Positions 37,361 through 46,575 of a DNA stretch of 64,000 nt are shown here, one piece after another. The stretch comes from Crocinitomicaceae bacterium (lineage in GTDB: Bacteria > Bacteroidota > Bacteroidia > Flavobacteriales_D > Crocinitomicaceae): positions 1-64,000 of the forward strand of contig JAQWYK010000047.1 of NCBI GenBank assembly GCA_029254025.1. The letters run 5' to 3'. The first letter of the stretch is position 1, and every line of letters starts with the position of its first letter. Both the position numbers and the translations under genes were made by a program. The notes beneath the pieces were generated by a model that was not told where the DNA came from, ran no database searches, and saw only the letters and a list, made by a program, of their open reading frames with translations.

Positions 37361-37981
37361 ATGAAATATTTTAATCTAGTTGTTGCAATTTCATTATTAC
37401 TTGTTTTTAACTCGTGTATTGAGCATGAAGTCATCCCACCTCCAAAGCCAGTGGTTGAATTGGAATGTTCTTTCTCAGCAACAGTTGATGGCACTCCTTA
37501 TAGTCTTGTTATGGACGTAAATGGCATGTATTGCGAATCAACTAAGTCAAAAGAGATTAATCCTTCTCCTCAACCTTCTACAGCAACCTACAATGCCACA
37601 ATGAAGAGTGATGTTCAGTTGGACTTTGTTCAAATTTCACTCGGTAAATTAAATTTTAACGCAGATGTGGATGCGGATCCTTCTTTAGAGCAGTTTACAA
37701 CATTCTTTAATGCCAATGCCAATCCTGATTATTCTCTTGGGGCAAACACAGGAGTGGAAGTAGTTTTTAGAGATGCTGCAGGAAATGTTTGGTATAGCGA
37801 TCCCTCTTCAACAGATCCGCTAACTTTCTCATTTACTTCATTAGTTCAGGAGTCGGATGAGTCAGGAGATTACATGAAGTTTCAAGCTGCATTCACTTGT
37901 ACGATGGTAGACGACTTGGTAACCCCAACTACCTCATTGACGGTAGAAAATGCAGTCTTCATAGCACATTTCAAACGCTAA
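37361..37981 (+). CDS. Lipoprotein of unknown function
   Basis: A 206-residue lipoprotein with signal peptide and lipobox (VFNSC, Cys about 19), then a proline-rich stretch (PPPKP) and a beta-rich domain of about 175 residues opening ECSFSATVDGTPYSL. I do not recognise a named family. It probably sits on a membrane facing outward. It is monocistronic: a G11 tract and about 80 bp lie upstream and a strong terminator lies downstream. Confidence 0.7.
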   Translation: MKYFNLVVAISLLLVFNSCIEHEVIPPPKPVVELECSFSATVDGTPYSLVMDVNGMYCESTKSKEINPSPQPSTATYNATMKSDVQLDFVQISLGKLNFNADVDADPSLEQFTTFFNANANPDYSLGANTGVEVVFRDAAGNVWYSDPSSTDPLTFSFTSLVQESDESGDYMKFQAAFTCTMVDDLVTPTTSLTVENAVFIAHFKR

Positions 37982-38033: not shown

Positions 38034-38073
38034 AAGTTGGTCAAAATCTATTGTTTTGACCAACTTTTTTTTT
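38034..38073 (+). terminator. Intrinsic terminator after the lipoprotein gene
   Basis: A perfect 13-bp stem (38034-38046 with 38054-38066), a 7-nt loop and a run of nine T. The longer frame of the next gene begins inside it, which argues for the later start at 38101. Confidence 0.95.
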
Positions 38074-38100: not shown

Positions 38101-38799
38101 ATGGCTGATAGACTCAAAATTGCGATTCTCGGAGATTTCAACTTCACGTACAATGCACATCATGCAACGAATTTAGCTATTGAGCATTCGAAGAACCTAT
38201 TAGACATTGAAGTGAATACATATTGGTTGAGGATTCACGAGGCAGCCAGTTTAAAGCCACATCAATTTGCGAATTATGATGGCTTATTTGTAGCACCCGG
38301 TCCTTTCGAAAACATGTTTTTTGTTTCTGGTGTGTTAGATGCAGCAATTCAATCGAGAGTTCCGTTGTTGATTACGGGAGATGCCTACAAAGTCTTTATC
38401 GAAATCTTGATTGCCCATAACAATCTGAATTCGAATAACGAGAAATTGATTTCAGATAATCTATCTCCTTATGACAGTTTTGAGCGAATTGATGTATTTC
38501 CCGTTTCCAAAGAATTGGAAAAAATGTATAACGGAATTGCACGTGTGGAACTTTCGTCTTCGCGCTTTTCATTGTATCCACAATTGTTAGACTACTTGAA
38601 ACGGGAGGTGTTGGATATTGAAGGAGTGAATCAATTTGATGATCCCGATATTGTAAGCCTTCGTAAGCATGTCTTTTGTGTGGCAAGCATGAGCCTTCCG
38701 CAAATATGTAGTACCAGAGAAATGCCACATCCCCTCATTAGTTCTTTTCTGAATTTCGCATCACAAATGGATATGCTTAAAGAGGAAAAAGCTGGTTAG
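38101..38799 (+). CDS. Glutamine amidotransferase-like protein (CTP synthase C-terminal related) lacking the nucleophile Cys
   Basis: A 232-residue class I amidotransferase-fold protein. The opening KIAILGDFN, the YDGLFVAPGPFENM strand and turn, and the ending SLPQICSTREMPHPLISSFLNFA resemble proteins named CTP synthase C-terminal region-related. In those the nucleophile elbow reads about TCGGFQH, or has selenocysteine. Here the aligned stretch is ITGDAYK (91-97), with Gly 93 in the nucleophile position. It is therefore probably not a glutaminase and may bind a ligand or be a relic. The frame from 38056 is rejected because it starts in a terminator. It converges on rnhA with 6 bp between stops. 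Confidence 0.65.
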   Translation: MADRLKIAILGDFNFTYNAHHATNLAIEHSKNLLDIEVNTYWLRIHEAASLKPHQFANYDGLFVAPGPFENMFFVSGVLDAAIQSRVPLLITGDAYKVFIEILIAHNNLNSNNEKLISDNLSPYDSFERIDVFPVSKELEKMYNGIARVELSSSRFSLYPQLLDYLKREVLDIEGVNQFDDPDIVSLRKHVFCVASMSLPQICSTREMPHPLISSFLNFASQMDMLKEEKAG

Positions 38800-38805
38800 T
38801 CTATT

Positions 38806-39282
38806 TTAGAATAAATCGGGGTTTGTTTCTTGTGATTTTTCGTAACCTTCATCTATAAGTAGTTTTTGTCCTTCGGCAGCGTTAACAGCCAATTGATCGC
38901 AACGTTCATTTTCAGGATGCCCAGCATGACCTTTGACCCAAACGAATGTTGGCTTGTATTTGGCATGAAGTGATATATAGCGCTTCCATAAATCAGGATT
39001 CTTCTTTCCTTTGAACCCCTTTTTGTCCCAATCAAAGACCCATCCTTTTTCAACTGCATCTACAACGTACTTCGAGTCGCTATAAATAGTTATGGGGTAT
39101 TTTGTGGAATTCAAGGCCTCTAAAGCAACAATTACAGCTAAGAGTTCCATTCGATTGTTGGTAGTTAATCGAAAACCTTCAGCTAATTCTTTTTCTTTTC
39201 CTTGAAAACGTAGGATGGCTCCGTATCCTCCATTACCCGGGTTCCCTTTAGCAGCGCCGTCTGTGAAGATTTCGATTTTCAT
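38806..39282 (-). CDS. rnhA: Ribonuclease HI
   Basis: A 158-residue RNase HI that cleaves RNA in RNA-DNA hybrids. The catalytic set is intact: Asp 8 (FTDGAAKGNPG), Glu 46 (NNRMELLAV), Asp 69 (YSDSKYVV), His 119 (GHAGHPENE) and Asp 129 (CDQLA). The basic handle (KKGFKGKKNPDLWKR) is present. The frame extends 28 codons upstream into the neighbouring pspC remnant; the ATG at 39282 gives the normal N-terminus. Confidence 0.96.
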   Translation of the reverse strand: MKIEIFTDGAAKGNPGNGGYGAILRFQGKEKELAEGFRLTTNNRMELLAVIVALEALNSTKYPITIYSDSKYVVDAVEKGWVFDWDKKGFKGKKNPDLWKRYISLHAKYKPTFVWVKGHAGHPENERCDQLAVNAAEGQKLLIDEGYEKSQETNPDLF

Positions 39283-39919
39283 ATGCGTAAAGATAAAAAA
39301 ATACTTAGACGATATTTGCAGAATATTTTCACATGAATCTGGTGCGCTGGAGATTATGGAAGACATTGAATCTCAGATTGCAGAGCTTTTTCATGAGCGA
39401 CTCGGTCAATTTAGACAAGAAGTGACTGATGTTGATGTGGAAGAGATAATTGTACTAATGAGAGAGCCCCGCGATTATGCACTGGAAGAGTTTGAGTAGG
39501 ATGATTTGCTATTCATTGATAGGGATTCTGTGTATTTTTTTGCAGCTTCTGTTTCAATCATTCGAGATGGATCGCTTTCGGAGTTTGAAATTTCGATGCA
39601 AAAAATCAGTAATGGACCGACTGGAAAGAAAGCGGTGGAATATGCATAAGCTATAGGTTACAACTGCAATTTAGTCGGAAACGAGTTGTATCTACCCAGT
39701 TATTATTCCTTTCCTATTGCAGATAAGATACACGGTCAGCGCGTTGTTCTTGAAGTGCGAGTGCCTGAGGATAAGTATATTATTATGAAGAATTATGACG
39801 ATGATTTTCATGGAGAGGTGCGCACAAAATCAATGCGGCGAGTTGAGGATGAAAGCAAGTGGCGCGTCTGGACGACCAAACAAGATGAAGTTGCTGATTC
39901 AGTTACTGAGAAGGACTAA
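39280..39919 (+). pseudogene. Decayed PspC-type gene, 5'-truncated with internal deletion and two stops
   Basis: One continuous frame runs from about 39280 to the TAA after 39919, interrupted by TAG at 39497-39499 and TAA at 39647-39649. The first block (IKKYLDDICRIFSHESGALEIMEDIESQIAELFHERL...) is the N-terminal module of Bacteroidota PspC proteins. The later blocks (VSIIRDGSLSEFEISMQKIS, then IHGQRVVLEVRVPEDKYIIM) resemble their C-terminal region. The central PspC domain and membrane helices are missing, and the first 30 or so residues have been lost against rnhA. Recognition is by motif memory. It is very unlikely to make a working protein. Confidence 0.7.
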
Positions 39920-40035: not shown

Positions 40036-40647
40036 ATGGAAGAAAAGCAATTTGAAATAGTTGAAAAATCGGCTCAAGTGTTCTTGAAGTTCGGAGTTCG
40101 GGCTGTAACTATGGATGATTTGGCGCGAGAGCTGGGGATGTCTAAAAAGACAATTTATAAGTTTTTTTCGGATAAGGATGCCTTGATTCGCGCCATCATT
40201 GAGTTTAAAACTCAGGGTGATCGTGAAATATGTCAAATCGCATTTGAGCAGGCGGAGAATGCCATTGATGAAATGATTCGCATTAGTGAATTTATGTCTG
40301 AAATGCTACAAGATGTTCATTCTTCTGTGTTTTTTGACCTACAGAAGTACCATCGAGATGCATGGCAAATAATGGAAGACCATAAAAACACGTTTGTTCG
40401 GAATCAAATCAAACACAATATTGAGCGGGGAATTAAAGAAGGAGTTTATCGTGAAAATAGCGATTCAGATATTCTTTCCAAGGCATATGTGCTTACCATG
40501 GGGACTCTTTTTGATGGATATACTTTTCCTTCGAGTGAATATAAATTTACGACCGTTTTCAATCAAATCATTCGTTTCCAGATACGTGGTTTAGCGAGTG
40601 CAAAAGGGTTGGAATATTTAACTAAACGACTTCAACATGAAATTTAA
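40036..40647 (+). CDS. TetR/AcrR family transcriptional regulator
   Basis: A 203-residue repressor. The N-terminal helix-turn-helix (about 10-55) contains AVTMDDLARELGMSKKTIYKFFSDKDALI; the remaining helices form a ligand-binding and dimerisation domain. It is the first gene of an efflux operon and overlaps the TolC gene by 11 bp. It probably represses its own operon from the perfect inverted repeat at 39969-40010 and is released by a pump substrate; this is inferred from context. Confidence 0.92.
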   Translation: MEEKQFEIVEKSAQVFLKFGVRAVTMDDLARELGMSKKTIYKFFSDKDALIRAIIEFKTQGDREICQIAFEQAENAIDEMIRISEFMSEMLQDVHSSVFFDLQKYHRDAWQIMEDHKNTFVRNQIKHNIERGIKEGVYRENSDSDILSKAYVLTMGTLFDGYTFPSSEYKFTTVFNQIIRFQIRGLASAKGLEYLTKRLQHEI

Positions 40648-41968
40648 ATTTAAGACAACGTTCTTAGTATTGACGTTCGTCATCCCAGCAGTAAATGCCC
40701 AGAACTTTACATTGTTTGAGGCCCAAAATTATACTTTAGAGAATGCGGAGCAAATCAAAAATGCTGCTATTGATGTGGAGATTGCTCAAAAGAAAGTTGT
40801 AGAAACTAGAGCAATGGGCCTACCTCAGATAAACGCAGAAGGCAACTTTAATCACTTTGTTAACCTGCCGGTTCAAGTCGTCGATGGTGCCTTTATAGGG
40901 CAGCCTGGAACGCTGGTAAGCTTTCGCGCAGGAACGGATTATTCAATGAACGGTGGTGTTGCGGTGAATCAGCTAATTTTTGATGGTTCTTATTTAGTGG
41001 GATTACAGGTTTCTAAATTCTATAAGGAGTTTGTTGCTTCGAATGCCGATTTGACCAAAGAACAAGTGCTCACCAATGTTACAAAGGCCTATCAGCTTGC
41101 TTTGGTGAGCCGTGAGAATATGCGCTTCATGGATTCGTTAGTTACCTCTACTGAGGAACTACTTGAAAAACAACGTGAATTGCTCGCATTAGACTTGATC
41201 ATTCAAGAAGATGTCGACCAAATTAATTACGCCTATATCACAGCAAAGACGAATCAAGTCAATGCGAAGTATCAATACGAAAATGCGCTATCATTTTTAA
41301 AAATGGCAATGGCTTACCCAATGGAGAATTCAATTGAATTGATGGATAATCTAGAAGGTCTTCTTTCAGAAGCTGTTGCTGTATCCTCCGCTGAAAACGG
41401 CGTGGAGGCGAACATTCAATTACATGTGTTAAACAAACGGTTGGAATTGTCACGGTATGAGTTGAAAAATGCAAAGTTTGCCAACCTTCCTTCATTAGGA
41501 GCCTTTTTTCAGCATAAATATGATGCATACAGAAATGAATTCGATTTCTTTGATAGTAGTGGTGATTGGTTTGAACAAACCTTTGTGGGAGTTCGCTTGA
41601 GTGTGCCTATTTTTTCAAGCGGCGCAAGATGGTCGCGCACTCAACAAGCGCAATTGGAAATTGAAAAGCGAGAGTTTGAAATCAACGAATATAAGCGTTC
41701 ATTGCAGTTGCATGAAATTCAATACACGAACGACCTAAAATCTGCGATTGATAAACTTGCGTTGCAACAAGAAAATGTAAAGCTAGCATCTACTATTTAT
41801 AACAACGCCTTATTGCGTTCTGAAATTGGAAAAGAAAATAGTTTTATGGTCACTCAGAAATACACGCAAGTAATTACTGCTCAGGCACAATATTTAGGGG
41901 CTATGGTAGATGTGTTTAATGCTCGATTAAACATGGATAAGTTGTACAATAATATAATTCAGAAGTAA
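40637..41968 (+). CDS. TolC family outer membrane efflux protein
   Basis: A 443-residue outer-membrane channel subunit. Signal peptide 1-21 (VNAQ), then two repeats of long coiled-coil helices typical of the OEP family (about 35-230 and 260-440). Conserved features include AQNYTLENAEQIKNAAIDVEIAQKKV and LSVPIFSSGARWSR. It forms the exit duct for the pump encoded by the next two genes. Its start overlaps tetR by 11 bp. Confidence 0.93.
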   Translation: MKFKFKTTFLVLTFVIPAVNAQNFTLFEAQNYTLENAEQIKNAAIDVEIAQKKVVETRAMGLPQINAEGNFNHFVNLPVQVVDGAFIGQPGTLVSFRAGTDYSMNGGVAVNQLIFDGSYLVGLQVSKFYKEFVASNADLTKEQVLTNVTKAYQLALVSRENMRFMDSLVTSTEELLEKQRELLALDLIIQEDVDQINYAYITAKTNQVNAKYQYENALSFLKMAMAYPMENSIELMDNLEGLLSEAVAVSSAENGVEANIQLHVLNKRLELSRYELKNAKFANLPSLGAFFQHKYDAYRNEFDFFDSSGDWFEQTFVGVRLSVPIFSSGARWSRTQQAQLEIEKREFEINEYKRSLQLHEIQYTNDLKSAIDKLALQQENVKLASTIYNNALLRSEIGKENSFMVTQKYTQVITAQAQYLGAMVDVFNARLNMDKLYNNIIQK

Positions 41969-41979
41969 CACAAGTAGAA

Positions 41980-43095
41980 ATGATAAAATCAGTTAGTTTA
42001 ATCGCGTTGGCAGGGTTGTTTTTGATGGGGTGTGGTCCTCAATCGGAACTGGATAAATTAAAAGACAAGAAGTCAAAATTAAAAGCTGAATTGGCAGAAA
42101 TTGATATTGCCATTCAAGCTTTGGATACGACTTCAGTACCAACTTTTCCATTAGTAGGACTTTCAGCTGTGACCAATCAATCATTTGAACATCAAATCAG
42201 TGTTCAGGGTTCGGTAGAGACGGATAAGAATGTAATGATTAACTCTGAAATGAGTGGTGTTATTCAAAAAATTCATGTGAAAGAAGGTCAATCCGTAAGA
42301 TCAGGTCAATCATTGGCTACGATAGATGCAGAGATTTTGAATAGCAATATCAAAGAACTGGAGAATCAACTTGAGTTTGCGTCGTATTCACTGGAGAAGC
42401 AAGAGGAACTGAAAGCAAAGAATCTTGGTACGGAGTTCGAGTACAAACAAGTCTTGAATCAAGTAAATGCATTGAAGGCTCAGTTAGAGACTCTTACGAA
42501 ACAACGCAATAAATCTGTAGTTACCGCTCCATTCGACGGTGTTGTGGATCAAATCTTCCCAAAAGAAGGAGAAATTACTGGGCCTCAACAACCCCTGTTA
42601 CGTATTGTAAATAATAAAGAAGTGAGAATAACTGCTGATATATCTGAACGTCATTATCGCACTGTAGGAGTAGGGTCTGAGGTTAAAGTTTTTATCCCAA
42701 CATTACTTGATACATTCAACTTACAAATTACGAATGTCGGGAATTACATCCATCCAACAAACAGAACTTTTCGTGTTCGGGCGAATATTTCGAACAATGA
42801 ACGTATGCTGCCAAATATGTTGGCTCAGTTAATCATTACAGACCTAACTATCGATTCTGCTCAAGTGGTTCCATCTGAGGCTGTCATGAAATCACAGCTT
42901 AATGAGGACTATTTATTTGTTGCCGATAAACAAGGAGAAAATTACGTGTTGCGAAAAGTAATTGTTGAAGTTCTTAGTAAGCACGACGGTAGCGCTGCAG
43001 TAGTGCCCATCAACGGGGTGATTAAGGCTGGTGACCAAGTGGTAACTGAAGGTGGTCGCGGTGTATCTGAAAATGAAGTGGTAAGGACATTTTAA
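41980..43095 (+). CDS. RND efflux periplasmic adaptor (membrane fusion) lipoprotein
   Basis: A 371-residue adaptor. Signal peptide with lipobox (LFLMGC, Cys about 18), a short coiled-coil near 25-50, a lipoyl/barrel-sandwich pair (VQGSVETDKNVMINSEMSGVIQKIHVKEGQSV and VVTAPFDGVVDQIFPKEGEITG), a helical hairpin between them, and a beta-barrel domain after 215. It links the RND pump to TolC. It is 11 bp after the TolC gene and 12 bp before the pump gene. Confidence 0.94.
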   Translation: MIKSVSLIALAGLFLMGCGPQSELDKLKDKKSKLKAELAEIDIAIQALDTTSVPTFPLVGLSAVTNQSFEHQISVQGSVETDKNVMINSEMSGVIQKIHVKEGQSVRSGQSLATIDAEILNSNIKELENQLEFASYSLEKQEELKAKNLGTEFEYKQVLNQVNALKAQLETLTKQRNKSVVTAPFDGVVDQIFPKEGEITGPQQPLLRIVNNKEVRITADISERHYRTVGVGSEVKVFIPTLLDTFNLQITNVGNYIHPTNRTFRVRANISNNERMLPNMLAQLIITDLTIDSAQVVPSEAVMKSQLNEDYLFVADKQGENYVLRKVIVEVLSKHDGSAAVVPINGVIKAGDQVVTEGGRGVSENEVVRTF

Positions 43096-43107
43096 TCCGA
43101 AGAAATA

Positions 43108-46100
43108 ATGGATAATAAAGTAGAAAAGGGATTTGGGCTATCAACATGGTCAGTGAATAACCGTAAAACGGTGTTTCTTATCATGGCAATTATTTTCTTT
43201 GGGGGGATTATGGCCTATCAGTCTATGCCGAAAGAAAATTTCCCCGAATTGCAAATTCCTGAGATATATGTGGGAATAGCAAAGCCAGGGTCGGCTCCTT
43301 CTTATATGTCGGAGAAAATTGCACAGGCCATCGAAAAAGAGGCATCCAGTATAAAATTTGTAGATGAAATCAACTCAACCGCTCAACATGGTTATGTAAC
43401 TATTCGAATTAAGTTTGATTTCAAAATTACGGCGAAAGATGCCTTAACAAAGGTGAAAGATGCAGTAGATCAAGCTCGAGCGAAATCGGATTTTCCAGAA
43501 CTTCCTGTTGAACCAAATATCTTTGAATTAGACCCAAGTCAAATGCCAATTATGAACGTAAACTTAAGCGGGAATAATGCGGGATTGTTAAAGGATATTG
43601 CAGAAATTTTGGAAGATGAAATAGAGGACTTACCAGAGATCAATGAAGTTGATATACGTGGCGTTCAAAAGCAAGAAATGCGCATAGAAGTCGATCGATT
43701 GAAAGCTGAAGCGGTAAATGTTTCGATTTCCGATATCGAACAAGCGGTTCAATCTGAAAATACCACTATTTCGGGAGGAGAAATTCGCATGGATGGATTG
43801 CGCAAAACCATAATGATTGATGGTGAATTCAAAGATGCGGAAGAACTTAAGCGAATCATTGTAAAGCAGGACGACTACATGCCGGTATATCTTCAAGATA
43901 TTGCAAAGGTTTATTTTGGTAATGCTGATACTACGTCATATGCTCGGGAGTTCGGATTACCAGTAGTAATGCTAGATATTAAAAAGCAAGGCGGTGAAAA
44001 CTTATTAGTTGCTGCAGAGAAGATTCGTGAGATTGTAAAACAAGCGAAGAAAGACAACACAATTCCATCGAGTGTTGGGGTTTCTATCACTAATGATCAA
44101 TCGAATCAAACGAGAGATATGGTGTCGAATTTAGAGAATTCAATCATATTCGGAATTCTATTGGTGACTGTGGTATTGCTGTTTTTCTTAGGGGCACGGA
44201 ATGCCATCTTTGTTGGCGTAGCGATTCCTCTTTCTATGTTAATGTCTTTCATGATTTTAGATGCGATGGGAGTAACGCTGAACGTTATCGTTCTCTTCTC
44301 CCTTGTATTAGCACTAGGAATGTTGGTAGATAACGGAATTGTGGTGGTAGAAAATATCTACCGCCTCATGGACGAAGGAATGAATCCCTTTCAAGCTGCG
44401 AAACAAGGAGTAGGTGAAGTAGCTTGGCCGATAATTGCGTCTACGGCTACAACATTAGCTGCTTTTATTCCTTTGGCGATTTGGCCAGGAATTATGGGGG
44501 AATTTATGAAGTATTTACCCATTACATTAATGATTGTTTTGGGGTCATCTTTATTCGTTGCCTTAGTTATCAATCCTGTATTGACAGCTTTGTACATGAC
44601 CACGACTCCTTCTGTCCCTCGCAAACGGAGGGGTTCTGTTACTTCTGTCGTATTTATTGCCATTGGTGCATTGATCGCCCCAACGATAAATGTTACTTTG
44701 GGGAACTTGATTATTCTTACGGGGATAGTTACATTATTGAATTTGTACGTGTTTTTTCCTGGCACAGAGAAATTCCAAAAATCTGTTTTACCAAATTGGG
44801 AGCGTTTTTACCGTCGTTTCTTAACCTATGCGCTAGCGGGTAAGAGACCTGTATTCTTTATTTTAGGAACATTTGGTTTATTAATTTTTTCGTTTGTGTT
44901 AATTGGAATTTTTCAACCAAAGGTGGAATTCTTTCCCGTGAATCAGCCCAAATATGCGAATATCTTTATTTCACATCCGATTGGAACGGATATTAAAGTC
45001 ACGAATGCTTCTACTATTCTGTTAGAAGAAGAAGTAAATACAATTTTAGCTCCGTATTTGGCAGATACGGTTGGTAAAACCAAAGAGCAGCAAATCATTC
45101 AATCTATTATTTCTCAAGTGGGTGAGGGTACTTCTGATCCTGCGCAAGGAGTTACAATGGGAAGCACGCCGCATAAAGCCAAAATCACTATTAATTTCGC
45201 GGAATTTGAGCATCGTGATTCCATTAATGCAACAGGTTATCTATTGACGAAGCTGCAAAAAGAATTGAAGGGAAAGCTTCCTGCAGATGTTCAAATTTCA
45301 ATTGAAAAAGATGCTGCTGGACCTCCAACGGGAGCACCAATAAATATCGAAATTAAAGGAAAAGGCGATTACAGAGATTTGATTCTCGAAGCGACAAAAA
45401 TCAAATCATTTCTGGATCGTAAGCGGGTACTGGGGGTTGAAGAGCTGAAGTTAAATGTGGAAGCAACACGTCCTGAGATTCCAATTCTTGTAGATCGAGA
45501 ACAAGCGCGTAAATTAAATACGTCAACCGCTCAGATTGGTATGGCAATTCGAAAAGCGTTACTTGGTCAAGATGTAACAAAATATACGAAAGACGAAGAG
45601 AATTATGATATCGTCGTGCGATTCGAAGAACGTGACCGCTTCGATTTGAATTCGTTATTGGATCAAAAATTAATTTTCCGAAATAATAAAGGACAGTTGT
45701 TAAATATTCCGATTCGAAGTGTTGTAAAAGATCCTCAAGAGAATATTTCATATACAGGTGTAGTCCGAAAAGACCAGGTTCCACTAGTGACAATCTCGTC
45801 TAATGTTATCGAGGGATTCAACGCGAATGAAGTGGTGGATGAATTACGCGGCGTAATGCTAGATTATCAGGACGAAATGGGATTGCCAAATGGGATTACC
45901 TATCAATTTACCGGGCAACAAGATGAACAAGCGAAAGAAATGGCGTTTTTGAGCAAGGCATTGCTGATTGCAGTATTCTTAATTTTGCTGATCATTGTAA
46001 CACAATTCAATTCCTATTCTACACCTGCAATTATTTTGTTTGCTGTAGTTTTATCCTTGATTGGTGTATTCTTAGGGTTGGTGTTAAGTGGACAAACGTT

Positions 46101-46575
46101 CGTAATTATGATGACTATGATCGGTATTATTTCACTTGCTGGGGTTGTTGTGAATAATGCAATTGTATTGATCGATTATACCAATATGATTCGTCAGGAT
46201 AAACGTTTAGAGCTTGGGCTGACAGAAGATGAACAGTTGCCATTTGAGGAGGTTGTTAAAGCAACCATTCAAGGAGGAGAAACTCGTTTGCGCCCGGTAT
46301 TGTTAACAGCTATTACCACTGTTCTGGGACTGTTACCACTTGCCATCGGATTCAACATCAATTTCTTTACGTTGATATCAGAATATGATCCGAATATTTT
46401 TATTGGTGGGGACAACAACATGTTTTTCTCGCCGATGGCTTGGACGATCATTTATGGTCTGACATTCGCAACGTTCTTGACCTTGGTAATTATCCCAGCG
46501 ATGTACTTATCGCTCTACCGATTGAAGTTGTGGATATACCGAAAAATGAATTGGAAGTTACGCTCGAATTTATAG
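43108..46575 (+). CDS. RND efflux transporter, inner membrane pump
   Basis: An 1155-residue HAE1-type proton-driven pump. The N-terminus (NNRKTVFLIMAIIFFGGIMAYQSMPKENFPEL), the helix 4 proton-relay motif GMLVDNGIVVVENIYR and the late motif GVVVNNAIVLIDYTN are all present. About 45 mostly hydrophobic residues at roughly 508-552, after helix 6, add what look like two extra helices and make it about 100 residues longer than AcrB. Substrate cannot be read from sequence. It is last in the tetR-tolC-adaptor-pump operon. Confidence 0.95.
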   Translation: MDNKVEKGFGLSTWSVNNRKTVFLIMAIIFFGGIMAYQSMPKENFPELQIPEIYVGIAKPGSAPSYMSEKIAQAIEKEASSIKFVDEINSTAQHGYVTIRIKFDFKITAKDALTKVKDAVDQARAKSDFPELPVEPNIFELDPSQMPIMNVNLSGNNAGLLKDIAEILEDEIEDLPEINEVDIRGVQKQEMRIEVDRLKAEAVNVSISDIEQAVQSENTTISGGEIRMDGLRKTIMIDGEFKDAEELKRIIVKQDDYMPVYLQDIAKVYFGNADTTSYAREFGLPVVMLDIKKQGGENLLVAAEKIREIVKQAKKDNTIPSSVGVSITNDQSNQTRDMVSNLENSIIFGILLVTVVLLFFLGARNAIFVGVAIPLSMLMSFMILDAMGVTLNVIVLFSLVLALGMLVDNGIVVVENIYRLMDEGMNPFQAAKQGVGEVAWPIIASTATTLAAFIPLAIWPGIMGEFMKYLPITLMIVLGSSLFVALVINPVLTALYMTTTPSVPRKRRGSVTSVVFIAIGALIAPTINVTLGNLIILTGIVTLLNLYVFFPGTEKFQKSVLPNWERFYRRFLTYALAGKRPVFFILGTFGLLIFSFVLIGIFQPKVEFFPVNQPKYANIFISHPIGTDIKVTNASTILLEEEVNTILAPYLADTVGKTKEQQIIQSIISQVGEGTSDPAQGVTMGSTPHKAKITINFAEFEHRDSINATGYLLTKLQKELKGKLPADVQISIEKDAAGPPTGAPINIEIKGKGDYRDLILEATKIKSFLDRKRVLGVEELKLNVEATRPEIPILVDREQARKLNTSTAQIGMAIRKALLGQDVTKYTKDEENYDIVVRFEERDRFDLNSLLDQKLIFRNNKGQLLNIPIRSVVKDPQENISYTGVVRKDQVPLVTISSNVIEGFNANEVVDELRGVMLDYQDEMGLPNGITYQFTGQQDEQAKEMAFLSKALLIAVFLILLIIVTQFNSYSTPAIILFAVVLSLIGVFLGLVLSGQTFVIMMTMIGIISLAGVVVNNAIVLIDYTNMIRQDKRLELGLTEDEQLPFEEVVKATIQGGETRLRPVLLTAITTVLGLLPLAIGFNINFFTLISEYDPNIFIGGDNNMFFSPMAWTIIYGLTFATFLTLVIIPAMYLSLYRLKLWIYRKMNWKLRSNL

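Follow-up and report, generated by a model that had tools for sequence, protein, structure and literature searches.

The 64,000-nucleotide stretch of Crocinitomicaceae DNA analysed here (the window) encodes a protein which, judged from its structural model, is a free-standing class-I amidotransferase domain with the fold of the CTP synthase glutaminase domain. Glutamine hydrolysis through the Cys-His-Glu mechanism is not expected of this protein, all three positions being replaced in the alignments (Gly93; Leu199, which is Cys in most relatives; and Gln201). By sequence, it is a real and conserved pseudoenzyme with a fixed genetic partner, a predicted lipoprotein encoded directly upstream, and its retention together with the near-constant pairing suggests that the pseudo-glutaminase has a different job. 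It is tentatively proposed, with slightly less than even confidence, that it binds a ligand without hydrolysing it and shares one pathway with the lipoprotein; both the ligand and the link are what we infer. The family offers four elbow residues (Cys, Ser, Asp and Gly) alongside this fixed genetic partner. Three points go beyond an earlier sequence-only reading of the same DNA: the replacement of His and Glu, the existence of relatives with Asp or Ser at the elbow, and the neighbouring lipoprotein gene. The features discussed below are collected in Table 1.

Table 1. Features of the pseudo-glutaminase locus, in positions of the window.
Feature	Position	Strand	Basis
Predicted lipoprotein, 206 aa, lipobox Cys19 then IEHEVIPPP, beta-rich domain	37361..37981	+	Gene order, model
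Terminator-like hairpin and T run between the two genes	38034..38066	+	Scan; 14 pairs
Stand-alone pseudo-glutaminase (predicted CTP synthase glutaminase fold)	38101..38799	+	ORF, NF004836 match, model, structural match
Gly93 codon GGA, nucleophile elbow (Cys in CTP synthase)	38377..38379	+	Alignment with own PyrG and NF004836-type proteins
D94-A95-Y96-K97, start of elbow helix	38380..38391	+	Row counts, alignment
Arg155, aligned to E. coli CTP synthase Arg470	38563..38565	+	phmmer alignment to 1s1m
L199-P200-Q201, at CTP synthase His515-Pro-Glu517	38695..38703	+	phmmer alignment, row counts

Fold, family and relation to CTP synthase

The pseudo-glutaminase ORF comprises 232 codons and a stop, with a frame open throughout; the ATG at 38101 is usable as a start, and the mechanical ORF reaches further 5', to a TTG at 38056. 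The 232-aa product has no N-terminal synthetase domain and no signal peptide visible by eye at its N-terminus, and is probably cytosolic. In NCBIfam, its best match was NF004836, the CTP synthase C-terminal region-related (seleno)protein family, whose curated cut-off is 260 bits; the window protein scored 82.6 bits, and CTP synthase profiles also matched (27.6 and 24.5 bits). A Pfam search of the window protein gave no match, and so none to the class-I glutamine amidotransferase profile PF00117, which was reached at E 0.01 or better by 10 of the 33 rows of homologue alignment A1. A sequence search of the PDB returned weak matches only, five of six being CTP synthase (best E 0.09). An AlphaFold2 model built from 55 aligned sequences, namely the window protein and 54 of 80 loci from titled contigs (see below), had a mean pLDDT of 89.9 and a pTM of 0.89. 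The best structural matches of this model were CTP synthase glutaminase domains, with an E of 1.1e-12 against human CTPS2 (2vkt) in Foldseek and a Z of 23.6 over 224 residues (rmsd 2.9 Å) against E. coli CTP synthase (8fve_A). The sequence-only reading had named the CTP synthase C-terminal-related group as the best fit and had proposed structure prediction with superposition on the CTP synthase glutaminase domain; the fold agreement and the NF004836 match both bear it out. On these scores NF004836 is the nearest family, yet the window protein misses both the family cut-off and the Cys/Sec elbow.

As in NF004836/PRK06186, the window protein is a free-standing domain of about 230 aa, and it shares with the Methylobacter member P0001 the H-x-x-T-N at 20-24 and P-Q in place of P-E. 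It differs from NF004836 in having Gly where that family has Cys/Sec, Lys/Arg where Gln follows four residues later and, in the first site loop, P-G-P where the family has P-G-S-P, and in its shortened middle region. Its likeness to CTP synthase (PyrG) extends to the fold across nearly the whole chain and to a retained Arg470 equivalent, whereas the synthetase domain is missing and the positions of Cys379, His515 and Glu517 are all altered. The genome has a separate intact PyrG on another contig, with GICLGMQ and FHPEY, which rules out the pseudo-glutaminase as its only CTP synthase.

Against NF004836, the Cys proteins scored 336.9 (L199), 286.4 (P0001) and 259.1 bits (P0002, just under the cut-off), the Ser protein 181, one Asp protein 131 and four Gly proteins 83 to 96, with the genome's own PyrG at 169.2; the descending order of Cys, Ser, Asp and Gly proteins matches their order in the tree. 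This tree had 32 rows (20 of 62 relatives' proteins, nine PyrG domains and three NF004836-type proteins chosen among 99 matching plasmid records) and was rooted for drawing only. It placed the 20 pseudo-glutaminase-group rows on one side of a branch (support 100/97) and PyrG on one side of another (100/100), with the NF004836-type proteins and then the Ser and Asp relatives falling between PyrG and the Gly rows. In a second tree, from which five PyrG rows were removed and to which three relatives were added, including L230 from another family of the order, the Gly rows were separated from the rest by a branch supported at only 85/53 and L230 formed a long branch; a single origin of the elbow Gly is possible on this topology. 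L197, from an Agrobacterium plasmid region, was left out of the trees, its match sitting in a larger gene. On its Klebsiella plasmid, the NF004836 member L199 lies near DUF523 and DUF488 genes; DUF523 also figures among the selenoproteins listed in PMC13188914.

Loss of the catalytic residues and retention of the gene

The homologue sample comprised 142 proteins, 125 of them distinct in the core. Of the 142, 62 came from 63 relatives' loci, the window's own genome being counted among them, and 80 from titled contigs, the best 80 of 264 confirmed relatives; some genomes occur in both sets. The remaining locus, L063, was left out as a full-length CTP synthase in a 550-codon frame. The titled contigs with relatives include Brumimicrobium mesophilum and Lishizhenia tianjinensis, as well as some metagenome bins labelled Chryseobacterium, Chitinophaga and Kuenenia. 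Twelve further loci were added later, ten from the window's own family together with L230 and L231. Among 99 genomes of the order, a pseudo-glutaminase match was found in 59 of the 60 Crocinitomicaceae genomes (own included) and in 4 of the 39 others; the sole family genome lacking one, G056, is 82% complete, and one of the four outside matches, in G072, is a full-length CTP synthase. Across 299 genomes of the order searched at E 1e-19, the 125 that matched comprised 117 in the family and 8 outside it, three of the latter sitting in frames of CTP synthase length. Among the matches listed for 395 genomes of the phylum, two belong to the window's family and the others sit in longer frames, mostly as long as a CTP synthase. 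A phage search at E 1 gave no match to the pseudo-glutaminase and a plasmid search at the same threshold gave ten matching records, the first-ranked at 26.5% identity; on these results a phage or plasmid gene was set aside.

Residues 88-97 read P-L-L-I-T-G-D-A-Y-K. They form a gap-free alignment with P-F-L-G-I-C-L-G-M-Q in the CTP synthase of the same genome, where Gly93 meets Cys, and with P-x-L-G-T-C-G-G-F-Q in the three NF004836-type proteins. Residues 93-94 were assigned as the nucleophile elbow because strand 89-92 and helix 95-106 of the model flank this turn, and both model and alignment place neither Cys nor Ser there, ruling out another such residue at the elbow; position 95, two after the elbow residue, is Cys or Ser in 43 of 125 rows and Ala in the window protein. 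The elbow column is Gly in 122 of the 125 distinct rows, the remainder being Asp (L060, L062) and Ser (L061), and it is Gly in all ten further loci of the same family and in L230. The Asp relatives L060, L062 and L231, from another family of the order, read VDKTYK or TDKTYK. A chance origin of Gly93 is excluded, since homologues carry Gly at this column. The sequence-only reading, which had read the elbow as ITGDAYK with Gly replacing the catalytic nucleophile and had proposed an alignment of orthologues, is thus upheld, Gly being near-fixed; a Cys or Ser fitted at the elbow, or orthologues without a common fold, had been named as evidence to the contrary, and neither residue is seen at 93-94. 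Its description of a Cys or selenocysteine elbow in the wider group agrees with the Cys of all three comparators and with the GxUxG (Sec) elbow listed for NF004836 in PMC13188914.

Around the elbow, 121 of 125 rows have an acidic residue (Asp or Glu) at position 94, and 122 have Lys or Arg at position 97, where Gln is replaced; position 155 is Arg in 122, position 199 is Cys in 108 (Leu in the window protein) and position 201 is Gln in 123. His20, Glu150 and His210 are found in all 125, and the 55-row alignment has 40 invariant columns. When phmmer aligns the protein with E. coli CTP synthase, Arg155 falls on Arg470, Leu199 on His515 and Gln201 on Glu517. In the alignment with the genome's own PyrG and the NF004836-type proteins, the Glu403 region meets a nine-residue gap, so glutamine itself may no longer bind. 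Cys379, His515, Glu517, Arg470, Glu403 and Gln383 are taken here, with their roles, to be the active-site residues of CTP synthase.

Compared with L066, its closest relative at 96% identity, the pseudo-glutaminase shows 33 synonymous and 10 non-synonymous changes, for a dN/dS of 0.068 by Nei-Gojobori counting over this one genome pair; for the part of the lipoprotein present in L066, the same pair gives 0.098 (11 synonymous, 4 non-synonymous). None of the 63 listed genome matches has an internal stop. The four old active-site loops have a mean entropy of 0.72 bits against 1.44 over 221 columns (73 rows, from 122 thinned at 85% identity), a value as low being obtained in 0.5% of 20000 random placements of segments of equal lengths. 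Core loops are conserved in most folds, and for this reason the entropy test is only suggestive of above-average conservation of the pocket loops. The kept Arg470 equivalent, the conserved loops and the dN/dS of about 0.07 indicate that the gene is maintained, and the description of a conserved dead enzyme in the sequence-only reading thereby gains support from conservation and strong purifying selection. The binding or signalling role which that reading suggested would be in keeping with the conserved pocket loops.

The upstream lipoprotein

ORFs were called and clustered in 81 loci (the 80 titled contigs and the window), three of which lack testable upstream DNA, the glutaminase ORF being the first on the contig. 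The lipoprotein family stands directly upstream (-1) on the same strand in all 78 others, near-duplicates included, and the next-commonest neighbour families occur in 41, 36 and 36 of the 81 loci. It takes the same position in 15 of 15 deeper members, whose glutaminases share 33 to 40% identity with that of the window; in L195 it is found at -4 instead. A profile search found the lipoprotein full-length or nearly so in 58 of the 60 family genomes and in none of the 39 outside, counting G001, where it is truncated by the contig end. G003 has the glutaminase without a lipoprotein match because its contig ends beside the glutaminase gene; G056 has neither, and G063, outside the family, has a partial match (residues 4-79) in a longer frame. 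No lipoprotein match was obtained in G064, the genome with the Ser relative, or in G079 and G090, each with an Asp relative; the lipoprotein is likewise absent at three loci with Asp or Ser elbows and within a few kilobases around L230 (Gly, outside the family) and L231 (Asp).

The gap between the two genes is at most 26 nt in 53 of the 78 loci, measured from the first possible start codon, and 119 nt to the ATG in the window. A scan of the region for hairpins such as the intergenic one in Table 1 found one site against 1.3 expected in shuffles. An identical hairpin occurs in L066 and a similar one in L070, so that, window included, 3 of the 25 loci whose gap exceeds 30 nt have one, from which it follows that co-transcription is not obligatory.

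In the lipoprotein, Cys19, Glu23, Pro26 and Pro28 are present in 76 of 76 rows (of 78; L066 and L123, incomplete at the start, were excluded), and most rows read I-E/K-H-E-V/I-I-P-x-P after Cys19. Its model, from 51 sequences, is beta-rich with a pLDDT of 91.2 and a pTM of 0.79. Compared with solved structures, this fold gave no clear match: the best Foldseek E was 0.056, and the best Z was 7.7, to LpqH over 112 residues, a level typical of common arrangements. Pfam gave one sub-cut-off match (15.3 bits against 27) and NCBIfam none. The tag after the lipid-bearing Cys, xxHE[VI]IPxP or near, recurs in larger lipoproteins of the bacterial family with frames of 309-316 aa (L242, L243, L244, L245 and L247), which match the lipoprotein profile over its first 51-58 positions only; the tag may be a sorting or linker signal. 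In the deeper members L177-L190, one or two small same-strand ORFs of about 90-154 aa, related between loci by eye, precede the lipoprotein gene.

Possible functions of the pseudo-glutaminase

In the proposed mechanism, the old cleft would be rebuilt around Gly93, Asp/Glu94, Lys/Arg97, Arg155 and Gln201 and would hold, uncleaved, a small and probably carboxylate-bearing metabolite or peptide end, such a ligand being suggested by the kept Arg and the new charges beside the elbow. The bound and unbound forms might then signal to, or stabilise, another protein, whose pathway would also need the exported lipoprotein; the lipoprotein is assigned to the same process on the grounds of gene order and co-occurrence. 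Direct contact between the two proteins is unlikely because the glutaminase starts without a visible signal peptide; the two more probably contribute to a common process of envelope maintenance. A fuller version, in which a Crocinitomicaceae-wide two-gene system combines a cytosolic pseudo-glutaminase sensing a metabolite in its dead site with an exported lipoprotein acting in the same envelope process, is held to be unlikely; if true, it would offer a traceable case of an enzyme turned sensor, with relatives carrying Cys, Ser, Asp and Gly available for comparison.

Alternatively, the dead domain, its cleft free of ligand, may do no more than scaffold protein-protein contacts or act as a regulatory subunit, perhaps of the cell's own CTP synthase or of another synthase. 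We consider this rather unlikely: an intact PyrG is available in the genome, and the S2 domain of human carbamoyl phosphate synthetase 1 (CPS1), described in PMC4655335 as an inactive glutaminase-like domain retained in a larger enzyme with Ser for Cys, provides a precedent, whereas the old active-site loops are conserved above average, the trees place the pseudo-glutaminase far from PyrG, and no synthase gene was seen to recur beside it in the 81 loci (neighbours named from their sequences). By that description, S2 resembles the window protein in being kept after loss of the nucleophile, and differs in being fused to a synthetase, the window protein standing alone and carrying Gly. That the protein is still an enzyme, its chemistry shifted to residues such as Cys199, which occupies the former His position, or His20, Glu150 and His210, which never vary, is quite improbable despite the high conservation of these residues, as Cys199 is missing in 17 of 125 rows, including the window's Leu, and cannot be a general nucleophile, and His210 is common to CTP synthase (HPLF motif) and so probably structural.

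The pairing with the lipoprotein may instead reflect inherited gene order or co-regulation only and be functionally uninformative, a possibility compatible with the other readings of the protein and judged rather unlikely. Shared descent is suggested by the confinement of the pair, as far as searched, to one bacterial family; part of the loci are near-duplicates, and the terminator-like hairpin separates the genes in the window's genus. Against this, the pair stayed while other neighbours changed, persists in the deeper members at 33 to 40% glutaminase identity, and shows matching co-presence over the 60 family and 39 outside genomes, except for G003 and the outside genomes of Ser and Asp relatives. 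The loss of the catalytic residues could also be taken as a sign of a decaying pseudogene or a chance open frame; this is refuted by the 63 stop-free matches, the low dN/dS and the 40 invariant columns in 55 rows, leaving it a negligible probability. How catalysis was lost and a new role acquired could be examined in cultured strains, for example of Brumimicrobium and Lishizhenia. In a narrow search of 5.39 million open papers by title and start of abstract, none had a free-standing pseudo-amidotransferase as its topic.

An attempt to deduce the ligand from gene neighbours failed, as the downstream neighbour differs between clades. The ORF just downstream of the pseudo-glutaminase lies on the opposite strand in 78 of the 80 loci that have one, and its cluster varies by clade. 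In the window, this position is occupied by an ORF at 38806-39366 (- strand) which, from its sequence, we take to be rnhA-like, followed at 40036-46575 by a putative efflux operon of presumed TetR-like regulator, TolC-like, membrane fusion and RND transporter ORFs. The last two of these belong to families that also occur near the pair in 9 of the 81 loci, window included.
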